In this document: piece after piece, positions 9,612-63,862 of the stretch | Numbering within the stretch: the stretch's first letter is position 1 | Layout: every line of letters begins with the position of its first letter | NCBI RefSeq assembly: GCF_009746125.1 | Contig: NZ_CP041352.1 | Coordinates: 1,267,847 to 1,331,846 of the forward strand | Reading direction: 5' to 3' | Length of the DNA: 64,000 nt | From: Casimicrobium huifangae | GTDB taxonomy: Bacteria > Pseudomonadota > Gammaproteobacteria > Burkholderiales > Casimicrobiaceae | Notes under the pieces: model-generated | What the model was told of the DNA's origin: nothing | Databases searched by the model: none | Seen by the model: only the letters and a program-made list of their open reading frames with translations | Program-made: the position numbers and the translations under genes

Positions 9612-9726
9612 CAGCTTTTCTGTCAATGCACCATTGCAATGGGCATAAAGGCGGAAAAGCACAATAGTCGACATTCTGCCTTTTCTGCCAGATAGCCCTT
9701 ATCCGTCAACGGTTTCACGAAAAAGT
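9612..9726. repeat. long palindromic intergenic repeat, copy 1
   Basis: Landmarks are CTTTTC 9615, TGGGC 9640, TCGAC 9668, AGCCC 9694 and GAAAAAG 9719. The order, polarity and spacing match the six other copies in the window. It lies between YaeQ and a cupin gene, both on the minus strand. Confidence 0.85.
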
Positions 9727-9773
9727 CGTACGGCGAATATGCACTGTCGTCACGGCTGGCGGACAGCCGGTGG

Positions 9774-10160
9774 TTACGGCACTTTGACAAAGGCGGTGAC
9801 CAGCGGCTCGTCGCCGACTTGCCGGCTCCAGTGGCCGTGCACGGCGGGATCGAAGGTCGCGCCGTCGGGCAGCGTGTCGGCAGAAAAGAAGTGCTCACCT
9901 GCCTTGAAAATACGACTGCTGCCGTCCTGCAGACCAATTTCCATCGCGCCACCGAGCACGAACAGCCACTGCGGTTTCGGTGTGCAGTGCCACTGGCTGC
10001 GAAAACCCACCGGGCTTTGCCGCAATTGCAGGCCGGTGGCCGGCAGCACGGGCGACAGCATTGACTGGGGTGTGCCTTCGCTGAGGACGATCGGCTCGTC
10101 GCGGAAGCGGGCGCGACCGTCAGTGTCGGTGAACAGGATGACTTGCGTGAAGTGGCTCAT
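9774..10160 (-). CDS. small cupin-like protein
   Basis: The 128-residue protein has a beta-rich cupin pattern: 'GFRSQWHCTPKPQWLFVLGG' near residue 52 and 'KAGEHFFSADTLPDGATFDP' near 85. The usual HxH motif is reduced (Trp-His-Cys-Thr), and the second His appears near 'AVHGHWSRQ'. It may therefore bind metal differently or not at all. Related proteins are annotated only as cupin-domain hypothetical proteins. No functional partner is evident in the flanking genes. Confidence 0.7.
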   Translation of the reverse strand: MSHFTQVILFTDTDGRARFRDEPIVLSEGTPQSMLSPVLPATGLQLRQSPVGFRSQWHCTPKPQWLFVLGGAMEIGLQDGSSRIFKAGEHFFSADTLPDGATFDPAVHGHWSRQVGDEPLVTAFVKVP

Positions 10161-10222
10161 GGCAGGGAAGGTTGGGTCGAACGAGTTGCCGAAGCTTAAC
10201 CGCAGGCAGTTGTCGACGTCTC

Positions 10223-10816
10223 TTAGCGGATGACGAAATTCTCCACGTAGACGATCTCACAGGCGCCGGCGCCGCTGTCGGTGCGGGTGAGCGAGGTGCG
10301 CAGCTCACCACCCTTTGCCATTGCTACATCGACCAGCAGTCCCTCCAGCTCAATCACCTGCCCCACGCGGGCGCGGTCGATGGCGTTGGCGACGCCGGCG
10401 CTGGCGGCGATCAGGTGCATGTTGGCGCTGCTGGCGATGATCTGCTCAACGGGCGCTGGCAGTGAGTTGCTGCGTGACTTCCAGAAGTAGAAGCGGTCAC
10501 TCTGGCTGATCGCCAGTTGCTCGATGACGCTGCTGTCGGACATTACGCCCCAGCCCAACGCCAAGTCGCGCGGCATGAGGTCAGACGCCAGCGCGAAGCG
10601 GTAGCGTTCGCCCGCGAGCACGCGCGCGGTCAGCCGGAAGCGGGCGCGCGGCGTGAGCGTGTAGTCGTGCACGCGGATCGGCGCTGCGGTGACGTCGCGC
10701 TGCAGCGGCTCGGCGCTGACCAGCACGCCGGGCGGCTGCGTGACCTCGCGATCACGCCAGTCACGAGCGGCGGCGAACGCCGCGACGATGACCAGTAGCG
10801 CGAAAGCGATCCGCAT
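10223..10816 (-). CDS. hypothetical protein with N-terminal membrane anchor or signal
   Basis: About 197 residues when started at ATG 10816. An upstream start at 10867 would overlap the S4 gene. The protein opens with a hydrophobic stretch 'MRIAFALLVIVAAFAAA' and continues as a soluble, beta-rich domain with 'LTPRARFRLTARVLAGERYRF' near residue 55. A later 'DLALGWGVMSDSSVIEQL' segment is followed by 'DRFYFWKSRSN' near residue 107. I do not recognise the family. It follows the S4-domain gene closely and may be co-transcribed with it. Confidence 0.65.
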   Translation of the reverse strand: MRIAFALLVIVAAFAAARDWRDREVTQPPGVLVSAEPLQRDVTAAPIRVHDYTLTPRARFRLTARVLAGERYRFALASDLMPRDLALGWGVMSDSSVIEQLAISQSDRFYFWKSRSNSLPAPVEQIIASSANMHLIAASAGVANAIDRARVGQVIELEGLLVDVAMAKGGELRTSLTRTDSGAGACEIVYVENFVIR

Positions 10817-10826
10817 CAGTCGTGAC

Positions 10827-61228: not shown

Positions 61229-61256
61229 AAAAAAAGGCGGCTTCGGCCGCCTTTTT
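61229..61256 (+). terminator. intrinsic terminator
   Basis: AAAAAAGGCGGC and GCCGCCTTTTTT form an A/T-flanked hairpin around TTCG. It lies 14 bp after the symporter stop and is oriented for both strands, so it may also serve the GST gene. Confidence 0.93.
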
Positions 61257-61301
61257 TGTTTGCCTGGAAATAGCCGGAGCGATTGCCTCGCACCGCTGCG
61301 G

Positions 61302-61916
61302 TCAAGCGGCAGACGGATCAGTTTGCTTGAAAGAAGGGCGGCCGGCGATCTTCTTGTAGTGTCGGGCCAGATTGGGATGAGTTGTTTCCCAGCCAATGTC
61401 CGGATAGCGAAGCTTGAGATAACCCAGTGCGCAGCAGGCAGCAATATCGGCCAGCGACAGGGCGTTGCCAACGCAGAACTCGCGCTCACCCAGTTCCCGC
61501 GCCATTTCTTCGAGACACGCGGCGATCTTGCTGCGCTGCCGCTCGATCTGCTTGCTGCTCGATTCATTCTTGTCCGGGCGGCCGGCTTCCAGCCGGGCCA
61601 GGATCGCCGCATCGCACAAGCCGTCGGCGATGGCCTCCCAGCGCTTGGCGGCAATACGGTCACGGGAGGCTTCCGGGATCAGACGGTGCACCGGCGACAG
61701 GCCGTCGAGGTATTCCACGATCACGCGCGAATCGAACAGCGTCGTGCTGTCGTCCATTACCAGCGCCGGCACCTTGCCAAGCGGATTGATGCGCGCCAGA
61801 TCGGCGGGGGACGACCACGGATCGACCACTTCCAGATCAAGTTCGAGCTTTTTTTCGGCAGCCACAATGCGCACCTTGCGGGCGTAGGGGCTGGTGTTCG
61901 AATGGAGGAGTTTCAT
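61302..61916 (-). CDS. glutathione S-transferase family protein
   Basis: The 204-residue protein has a thioredoxin-like N-terminal domain ('LLHSNTSPYARKVRIVAAEKKLELDLEVVDPWSSPADLARINPLGKVPALVMDDSTTLFDSRVIVEYLD' at residues 3-72) with the Ser-Pro-x-x-x-Lys active-site region. The cis-Pro is in 'KVPALV'. The all-helical C-terminal domain has 'FCVGNALSLADIAACCALGYLKLRYP'. This is a beta/zeta-like cytosolic GST of unknown substrate. It is divergent from purB. Confidence 0.9.
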   Translation of the reverse strand: MKLLHSNTSPYARKVRIVAAEKKLELDLEVVDPWSSPADLARINPLGKVPALVMDDSTTLFDSRVIVEYLDGLSPVHRLIPEASRDRIAAKRWEAIADGLCDAAILARLEAGRPDKNESSSKQIERQRSKIAACLEEMARELGEREFCVGNALSLADIAACCALGYLKLRYPDIGWETTHPNLARHYKKIAGRPSFKQTDPSAA

Positions 61917-62137
61917 GCGGGCAACTTGTTATTGGTACGACCTACTGCTGCGACGAATCTAGCACGTCATGGCGAGGTCGCAAATCCGGTCCGACGACAA
62001 GGGATAATAGAGGGCTGACACTGCTTGACAAAGACGTTCTTTTTCCTGCAGTCGCGTCAATTTCCCCGGTGATTTGTGGCGTTGGTGCATGTTGACCGCG
62101 CCAACGCCGCCAACGCATCCACTGCAGCTTTTCAATC

Positions 62138-63529
62138 ATGGCCACGATCGATACCCTCATCGCACTGTCTCCACTGGACGGGCGTTACCAGCGCAAGGTT
62201 GCTGTTCTCGGCGATGCTTTCAGTGAATTCGCTCTCACCCGTGAGCGTGTACGGGTCGAGTTCGCGTGGCTGCGCTCGCTTGCGGCGGAACCGGACATTT
62301 CGGAATTGCCGCCGCTGAGTGACGAAGCGCTGGCGTTTCTCGATGCGCTGGTGGCCAATTTTTCCGTGGACGATGCGTCGGCGGTGAAAGCCATCGAGGC
62401 GACCACCAATCACGACGTAAAGGCCGTCGAGTACTGGATCAAGGACAAATTCAAGGCGCTGCCTGAGCTCGCGCCGCACGCGGAATTCGTGCACTTTGCC
62501 TGCACCTCGGAAGACATCAACAACGTCTCGCATGCGCTGATGCTGAAGCGCGGTGTGCACGGCGTGCTGCTGCCGCAGCTTGATGATGTGATCGCGGCAC
62601 TGGCGCGGGTGGCGATAGCTACTGCCGAACTGCCGATGCTCTCTCGCACCCATGGGCAGGCGGCGACGCCGACGACCATGGGCAAGGAGATCGCGCTGTT
62701 TGTCGATCGTCTGCAGCATGCGCGCCGACAGATTGCCGCCGTGCCGCTGCGTGCCAAGATGAATGGTGCGGTGGGCAATTACAACGCACATCTGTCAGCC
62801 TATCCCGAGGTTGACTGGCCGGCGCTGTCGCAAGCCACCGTGGAAGCGCTTGGCCTGACGTGGCAGCCGATGAGCGCACAGATTGAGCCGCATGACTACA
62901 TGGCCGAACTGTTCGATGCCATCGCCCGCGTCAACACTATCCTGATCGACTTCTGTCGCGATACCTGGGGCTACATCTCGTTGGGCTTCTTCAAGCAACG
63001 GCTGAAGGAGGGCGAAGTCGGCTCCAGTACCATGCCGCACAAGGTCAATCCGATTGATTTTGAAAACGCAGAGGGCAACTTCGGCATTGGCAATGCCCTG
63101 TTGCGGCATCTGGCCGAGAAGCTGCCTATCTCGCGCTGGCAGCGCGACCTGACCGATTCCACCGTGCTGCGCAACATGGGCGTGGCGGTGGGCTACAGCC
63201 TGCTCGGTATCAGCTCGGCGCGGCAGGGTATCGGCAAGCTTGAAGTCAACGCTGACGCCATGCTTGCTGATCTCAATGCCAACTGGGAGGTGCTGGCCGA
63301 ACCGGTGCAAACAGTGATGCGCCGCTACGGTGTGTCGGGCGCTTACGAGCAATTGAAGGCGCTGACCCGCGGCCAGCGCATTACGCCGGCAGCGATGACG
63401 GCCTTCATTGACGGCCTTGATATTCCAGCCGCAGCGCGTGCCGCCCTGCGCGAGCTGACCCCGGCGCGTTACACCGGCCTCGCGGCCGAGCTGGCTCGGC
63501 GCTATGCGGTGACCGAAACAGCGGATTGA
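62138..63529 (+). CDS. purB: adenylosuccinate lyase
   Basis: The 463-residue enzyme has '[18 protein letters not shown]' at the N-terminus, '[17 protein letters not shown]' near 125, '[26 protein letters not shown]' near 165 and the fumarase/aspartase signature '[25 protein letters not shown]' near 290. The SSxMPxKxN loop supplies the catalytic Ser. It removes fumarate from SAICAR and adenylosuccinate in purine synthesis. Length and motifs are normal for the ASL clade (PurB of E. coli). Confidence 0.97.
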
Positions 63530-63862
63530 TGGATGCGGCGTCGGTTGCCGGCGCCACCCACCCCATTCGAGCGTGATTTTCGAGTGCCGGTTGATGGCAA
63601 CTTTTTGCTGAAGTGGCGTCGGCTTAAGGCCTGAAAGCCAATAATGCCGATTGTCGACTTTCCGATTTTTCGACGGTTAGCCCTTATCAGATGGGACTTA
63701 ATTCGAAAAGCTGCTTGAACGACAGATCGCTGCCATGCGCATATGCATAGGGTAATTTTTTCTATCAAGCGGCGTGATTCGAGACCTAGAATCGATCGAG
63801 AAACTGTTCAGTGATTCCCTGCAGTTCCCCATGAACCGGCAACACTCGGAGGAGGAGTCCCC
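63530..63862. other. 333-bp intergenic region with palindromic repeat
   Basis: Between purB and the cytochrome gene, this gap holds repeat copy 7 (63601-63712). A strong GGAGGAG precedes the cytochrome start. No other gene was seen. Confidence 0.6.
63601..63712. repeat. long palindromic intergenic repeat, copy 7
   Basis: Landmarks are CTTTTTG 63601, AAGGC 63626 (degenerate TGGGC), TCGAC 63654, AGCCC 63679 and GAAAAG 63705. The spacing again matches the other copies. Confidence 0.8.

Follow-up and report, generated by a model that had tools for sequence, protein, structure and literature searches.

Seven symmetric elements in the window

The window analysed here is a 64,000-nucleotide stretch of the Casimicrobium huifangae genome (assembly GCF_009746125.1, contig NZ_CP041352.1, positions 1,267,847 to 1,331,846 of the forward strand), and it carries seven copies of a large, two-fold symmetric element built around a central TCGA (Table 1). 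These copies belong to a real, genus-wide family of large symmetric duplex sites, with good evidence that their places in the genome are conserved and that their consensus drifts between species. A preliminary description had reported seven segments with landmarks at near-fixed distances from the central TCGA, and both the segments and the distances were confirmed. When centred on TCGA, the seven copies align almost without gaps across about 120 bp, and the landmark letters themselves are not invariant: the right GCCC reads GGTCC in copy 3, and TGGGC reads AGGGC in copy 6 and AAGGC in copy 7. Copy 6 lies between divergently called genes.

Table 1. Positions in the window of the seven elements and of the landmarks of copy 5 (PWM, position weight matrix; G018, a related genome).
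Feature	Position	Strand	Remarks
Copy 1	9610..9729	.	dyad 9669/9670; PWM score 85; G018 has an element between the same two genes
Copy 2	17185..17304	.	dyad 17244/17245; PWM score 82; element in the orthologous G018 gap
Copy 3	23316..23435	.	dyad 23375/23376; PWM score 87; element in the orthologous G018 gap
Copy 4	28414..28533	.	dyad 28473/28474; PWM score 75; one-base alignment gap on the right
Copy 5	37869..37988	.	dyad 37928/37929; PWM score 104, the best match in the window
Left TGGGC landmark, copy 5	37899..37903	+	
Central TCGA dyad, copy 5	37927..37930	.	
Right GCCC landmark, copy 5	37954..37957	+	
Copy 6	55110..55229	.	dyad 55169/55170; PWM score 79; upstream of the acetate-CoA ligase gene (acsA), 55382-57358
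Copy 7	63596..63715	.	dyad 63655/63656; PWM score 73; downstream of the adenylosuccinate lyase gene (purB), 62138-63529

We refer to the genome under study, a single contig of 4,465,898 bases, as G000 and to the compared genomes by other G-numbers. A symmetrised PWM, for which the window and bases 1-400,000 of G000 served as training sequence (the genome record opens with genes that we take to be dnaA, dnaN and gyrB), returned exactly the seven copies in the window and 27 copies in the 400 kb. The shuffled-type control that had been proposed as a test of the family, run here as a third-order Markov version of the same 400 kb, gave no position scoring above 8. With the fixed-gap pattern TGGGC-N23-TCGA-N23-GCCC, one strand of G000 gave 90 matches and the other 98, against 0 and 0 for its reversed control pattern, and a pattern with more fixed letters gave five strand-wise matches in the window, at three sites, whereas 100 shuffles gave none. 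Without any change, the PWM found a further 34 copies in a held-out 400 kb (2.6-3.0 Mb of G000). The total of 68 copies in 864 kb (7 in 64 kb, plus 27 and 34) corresponds to about 350 in the genome of 4.466 Mb, which bears out the earlier expectation of hundreds genome-wide.

Read from the outside in, the G000 half-site consists of CARC-TTTT, AAA (-46 to -44), a C-rich segment near -42 to -39, ATT, TGGGCT (-30 to -25), A/T-only positions around -14, AA(G) and the TCGA dyad, with the other half mirrored; conserved columns run from about -61 to +61 around the dyad. Columns ±14, 13, 5 and 4 are occupied by A or T, either base serving, in 229 of 232 letters in G000, 165 of 168 in G018, 244 of 272 in G009 and 80 of 88 in G005. 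Along the whole element, the A/T alternation fits best at 9.5 bp in G000 and at 9.6 bp in G009, a fit that 0 and 1 of 500 half-profile shuffles reached, respectively; a single period describes it approximately. The matrices hold 73 bits (G000), 81 bits (G018) and 53 bits (G009), values that are somewhat high because the copies were picked by score, whereas 13.6 bits would be enough to mark 351 sites; such an excess suits what many cooperative contacts would give.

Arm symmetry and fold-back

The preliminary description had each copy folding on itself around TCGA and took this as a sign of selection on structure. The first claim proved weak, as copies such as 4 and 5 have their two arms paired in the minimum-energy fold and others, copies 1 and 3, do not, and the mean folding energy of -37.1 kcal/mol is no better than that of chimeras with arms swapped between copies (-38.0 ± 0.7 kcal/mol). 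The second finds no support in the arms themselves. Across 28 copies of G000 we counted 809 arm-to-arm matches against 799.5 ± 22.8 for permuted arms, and whole-arm complementarity equalled that of permuted arms in four genomes (z 0.42 in G000, 0.49 in G009, 0.58 in G018 and -0.86 in G005). The covariation check, run by permuting arms and also half-stems in these four genomes, gave no significant signal either for the half-stems about ±33.5 (z 0.84, -0.58, -1.54 and 1.52 for G000, G009, G018 and G005, with 21 copies for G018 and 11 for G005) or for the outer columns (z -0.26, 0.21, 1.38 and 1.97 in the same order). No Rfam model matched the window at gathering score. On the arm and half-stem permutations and the Rfam result for the window, we rejected a hairpin, a cruciform or an RNA as the general nature of the element. 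Because the arms do not covary, the most plausible reading of the symmetry is a pair of equal half-sites in duplex DNA.

One element, at about 2,706,500 of G000, carries in one half a terminator-like hairpin, CGGGCC..GGCCCG followed by T5, and its orthologue in G018 (contig C16, about 127,150) has it too.

Placement, spacing and distribution

Genes were called by a simple codon-usage script in place of a standard gene finder. None of the dyads of the first set of 34 G000 copies (the window and bases 1-400,000) lies inside a called gene, and none of the 34 held-out G000 copies or of 43 copies in G018 has its central 50 bp inside one. In the first set, 20 copies lie between codirectional, 7 between divergent and 6 between convergent genes, with one at the window edge, a distribution similar to that of all gaps of at least 130 bp (103, 43 and 17). 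As the gene-orientation classes are like those of the background, we rejected a promoter- or terminator-specific site.

The elements are also kept in place. For G000 and G018 we worked with 78 reciprocal best hits, all of more than 50% identity and with a median of 92%, and with 56 adjacent orthologous pairs: an element is present in both genomes in 6, in neither in 50, and in one only in none. For copy 2 the one flanking gene located in G017 is adjoined by an element, and for copy 3 no element stands beside the one flanking gene located there; the flanking genes of copies 4 and 5 are absent from the stretches of relatives compared. The element upstream of acsA was found in eight of the nine relatives examined, all except G020, with low scores in G009 and G006 (27 and 29). 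Downstream of purB an element was found in six of nine relatives and none was found in G006, the site being out of reach in G013, where the stretch ends, and in G020, where the gene falls outside the stretch.

In eight hand-chosen orthologous pairs, informative columns agree at 0.80 and uninformative columns at 0.40, compared with 0.75 and 0.33 for non-orthologous copies, such that the landmarks have been held and the remaining letters have largely turned over. Within genomes, mean pairwise identity between copies is 0.44-0.50 and the maximum 0.65 (29, 34, 21 and 11 copies of the four genomes compared). On the low identity between copies and their concordant places, we rejected a recent mobile element. 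The comparison with empty orthologous sites that had been suggested yielded no discordant place among the 56 pairs of G000 and G018, and an element-free place was seen elsewhere, at acsA in G020.

At positions 21711-21810 the window contains a separate inverted repeat, about 100 bp long, with arms GTCCAATTCAATCCGA / TCGGATTGAATTGGAC. No second copy was seen in 864 kb of G000; among the matches listed, nine of 74-88% are dispersed in G018 and others occur in G009, G016, G005, G006 and G015.

We then compared the intervals between elements with random intergenic placement. With a 105-kb gap left out, the first G000 set gives 31 intervals with a mean of 9.9 kb and a coefficient of variation (CV) of 0.43, against 0.94 ± 0.15 for random placement, and 0 intervals below 4 kb against 10.4 expected. 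With the gap kept there are still 0 such intervals against 7.9 expected. Because the gap was excluded after the fact, two fresh data sets were tested. The held-out 400 kb of G000 gave a CV of 0.56 against 0.89 ± 0.14 (P 0.0015), with 2 intervals below 4 kb against 8.6, and at a higher score threshold a CV of 0.64 (P 0.017), with 1 short interval against 7.5. Similarly, 519 kb of G018 gave a CV of 0.59 against 0.93 ± 0.13 (P 0.0005), with 4 intervals below 4 kb against 10.8. The evidence for regular spacing is fair.

The 105-kb copy-free stretch (about 110-215 kb of G000) holds a PFGI-1-type conjugative element near a tRNA-Gly gene. This conjugative element runs from about 119,400 (tRNA-Gly, L053:19411-19484), ends before 203,000, and includes a DrmD-like helicase gene (below the family cut-off) and another defence-like gene. 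The G000 region at about 1.62-1.82 Mb likewise has no pattern match among the matches listed over about 200 kb, the next listed model match being at 1,824,398, and is perhaps another acquired region.

To follow the family beyond G000, we used a sequence-only model, R1, built from 97 of 120 eligible copies from nine of the 17 genomes of the genus, which match it partly by construction since it was built from them; copy 5, for example, is matched at E 4.6e-20 and is among R1's own building copies. R1 counts cover both strands, with at most 56 or 18 candidates scored per genome. The search of this genome and its relatives that the preliminary description had called for turned up further copies in G000 and matches in 16 of the 17 genus genomes at E <= 0.01, all except G014; seven of the eight genomes that had contributed no copy to R1 match. 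Each genus genome other than G014 and G020 has at least 56 strand-wise matches. These two are the smallest of the genus: G020 has 24 strand-wise matches, or about a dozen copies, and G014 gave no R1 match among 32 candidates scored, five of its stretches reading N throughout and its gyrA being found.

Outside the genus, a single match, a marginal one, was obtained among 47 genomes from the six other genera of the family (G051, E 0.0013). Of 200 genomes sampled from the order, five match at E <= 1e-4, all of this genus, and 195 do not; kinship is listed for part of this sample, and 175 of the genomes that do not match come without it. An exact pattern including the A/T positions hit 4 of 300 genomes of the order, all from this genus. 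None of 15 named beta- and gammaproteobacterial genomes matches in a search that had no positive control of its own, and stretches of 4.5-60 kb from ten genomes of the other genera contain no matrix score above 12. A strict pattern gave 0 matches in IMG/VR viral contigs, a weak negative, as this pattern fits only the G000-type consensus. Among the genomes searched, the family thus appears confined to one genus.

Within the genus, the letters differ by species. G009 (GC 55%), with 43 copies in 300 kb, is T-rich before TCGA where G000 has AAG and has GGGCG-type arms, and G005 carries forms such as GCCTTA..TAAGGC at the same geometry. With the geometry kept and the letters differing by species, it seems that a genome's sites have changed in concert.

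Interpretation and likeness to known systems

We propose, with moderate confidence, that each copy is a two-fold symmetric duplex site of about 120 bp for a putative protein complex that would anchor chromosomal domains. A symmetric complex bound along the whole site is suggested by the symmetry without covariation, the A/T positions that take either base, the fixed landmarks and the excess information. Such a multi-subunit complex would make base-specific contacts at the dyad and near ±28, ±40 and ±55, would also contact the A/T-only positions near ±4.5 and ±14, and would probably carry the DNA wrapped along its surface. Since the sites are intergenic, free of orientation, fairly evenly spaced and conserved in place, the role may well be architectural, with sites roughly every 10 kb in intergenic DNA acting as spaced anchors or supercoil-domain boundaries. 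The specificity of the protein would drift between species, and several hundred sites would drift along with it. Of the options in the preliminary description, the nucleoid site fits best in that the elements are dispersed, intergenic, fairly evenly spaced and of constant geometry; the nucleoid role itself is put forward as a proposal.

Several observations weigh against this proposal. The A/T period is not uniform: fitted apart, the wings give 7.25 bp in G000 and G018 and 10.25 bp in G009, and the centres give 8.5-9.0 bp. Because wings and centre give differing periods, helical wrapping is not established. In G009, 12 of the 43 centres are not within a called intergenic gap. With the 105-kb gap kept, the CV of the first G000 set is 1.33 and not below random. 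Spacing is also weaker in G009, where the CV is 0.63-0.75 (P 0.009-0.11) and clearly below random at two of three thresholds, and where intervals below 4 kb are not depleted (16 against 17.9, 11 against 11.6 and 6 against 8.0 at the three thresholds).

The least probable of the alternatives is an element acting at the RNA level, namely bidirectional terminators or processing hairpins. Each half does contain a pseudo-palindrome about ±33.5 (in G009, the local palindrome GCCCAATT..AATTGGGC), and one copy shares its terminator-like hairpin with its orthologue, but stem covariation is not significant in the four genomes (z between -1.54 and 1.97). With no clear gene-orientation preference and no Rfam match in the window either, RNA processing or termination, another of the options offered earlier, lacks support as a general role. 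An old non-autonomous mobile family of the ERIC, REPIN or MITE kind that has become fixed and is decaying would explain copies of about 120 bp that are dispersed, intergenic, palindromic and limited to one genus, and we regard it as very unlikely: the identities given above are low, conservation sits at fixed columns, G000 and G018 agree in their places, and the consensus is particular to each species within one geometry. The same low identity and the places kept between species count against the mobile-element option of the preliminary description in general. The sites could instead be operators of a dispersed regulon, bound by a large DNA-wrapping transcription regulator upstream of its targets. 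Their symmetry, intergenic location and conserved place, as well as the position of copy 6 between divergently called genes, agree with this, but we judge it improbable. Even spacing would not be expected of operators, and because the 34 copies fall into orientation classes much as gaps in general do, some of them occupy places where a promoter would not be expected.

Strong gyrase sites are a further possibility, and one that we rate as unlikely rather than remote. Gyrase would bind at the dyad, cut TCGA with a 4-bp stagger, hold the wings on the GyrA C-terminal domains and set supercoils about every 10 kb, with no dedicated protein needed. The Escherichia coli gyrase motif is described as 130 bp long, with its axis of symmetry at the cleavage site, a central part of 36 bp, a 4-bp staggered cut and two phased GC wings that repeat at 10.75 bp (PMC6379681). 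The element resembles this motif and the strong site of phage Mu in its length, in its symmetry about a 4-bp centre and, in part, in its A/T and G/C phasing, with DNA wrapped at the gyrase sites (PMC6379681, PMC12393610, PMC12324340); the dyad as cleavage centre is an assumption of the comparison. The A/T phasing of G009 places the annotated Mu gyrase cut site fairly well, at rank 41 of 19,872 positions (343 with G018 and 680 with G000), and each of these rankings is best at zero shift within ±3. For the G009 wings taken by themselves, a period of 10.75 bp gives almost as good a fit as the best one (R2 0.21 vs 0.23), type II topoisomerase preferences vary between species (PMC12324340), and the 400-500 supercoiled domains of E. 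coli come near the roughly 350 sites here (PMC3820752).

Against this, the wings of G000 and G018 fit best at 7.25 bp (R2 0.52 and 0.54) and poorly at 10.75 bp (0.18 and 0.09); across the element as a whole, 10.75 bp gives an R2 of 0.08-0.17. Gyrase cleavage-domain preferences are given as -4G/+8C, -2A/+6T and +1G/+4C (PMC12324340). With TCGA as the overhang, +1 is T and not G, -4 is mostly A (G000 and G018) or mixed (G009), and the A at -2 is found in G000 and G018 and mostly replaced by T in G009. The Mu site scores negative with every matrix, both by base (-94.7 with G000, -98.9 with G018 and -39.6 with G009) and by A/T phasing (-23.9, -29.7 and -2.0). GyrA gave one match in each of eight genus genomes, in open frames of 860-890 amino acids, and these genomes include G014, where no site was detected, and G020, where sites are few. 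Finally, the degenerate E. coli motif has far less specificity than the element. The element may resemble a gyrase site in wrapping DNA, and its membership among such sites is not supported.

Returning to the domain-anchoring duplex site, we advance a bolder form of it more tentatively: a previously undescribed system of one genus, in which a nucleosome-like complex would wrap about 120 bp at each of about 350 sites, every 10 kb or so, each site would be a domain boundary, and protein and sites would co-evolve to a consensus of their own in each species. No description of such a family was found in searches of open-licence PMC papers. It has long been asked what determines supercoil-domain boundaries in bacteria, and boundaries that are defined by sequence and regularly spaced would come as a surprise. 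If the sites are such anchors, the genus would offer a natural system whose sequences reveal where boundaries lie, how they are spaced and where they have been lost. That hundreds of sites have changed their letters and kept their geometry and place gives a rare view of a concerted change in DNA-binding specificity. Furthermore, G014, with no detected copy, and G020, with about a dozen, may amount to a natural loss experiment in which the protein could be sought by gene content.

Among known repeats, BIME, REP and REPIN elements also occur as many intergenic palindromic copies (PMC2817692, PMC3116915), and BIME-2 is cut by gyrase (PMC6379681). They have base-paired stems and high similarity between copies, whereas the elements here have no hairpin covariation (no excess of complementarity over permutation in four genomes), are about half identical (0.65 at most) and occupy places that species have in common. 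ERIC and the 127-bp RU-1 repeats are of similar length and intergenic (PMC2759123); unlike them, the elements here keep their landmark columns alone and differ in consensus by species.

Multi-subunit protein rings offer a likeness of another kind. RemA forms such a ring and has been proposed to wrap DNA via many contacts (PMC8481266). Histone-fold wrapping was considered through a search limited to PF00808 and was rejected, with 0 of 11 genomes positive and 3 of 14 controls positive, all of them archaea. Lrp-type octamers are likewise multi-subunit rings proposed to wrap DNA; the likeness of RemA and of these octamers lies in the proposed wrapping, with no link to the elements. The sites known as matS and those of SlmA and Noc are dispersed, symmetric protein sites of about 13-20 bp that organise the chromosome. 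The elements described here differ from them in their length of 120 bp, their information content of 53-81 bits and their fairly regular spacing.

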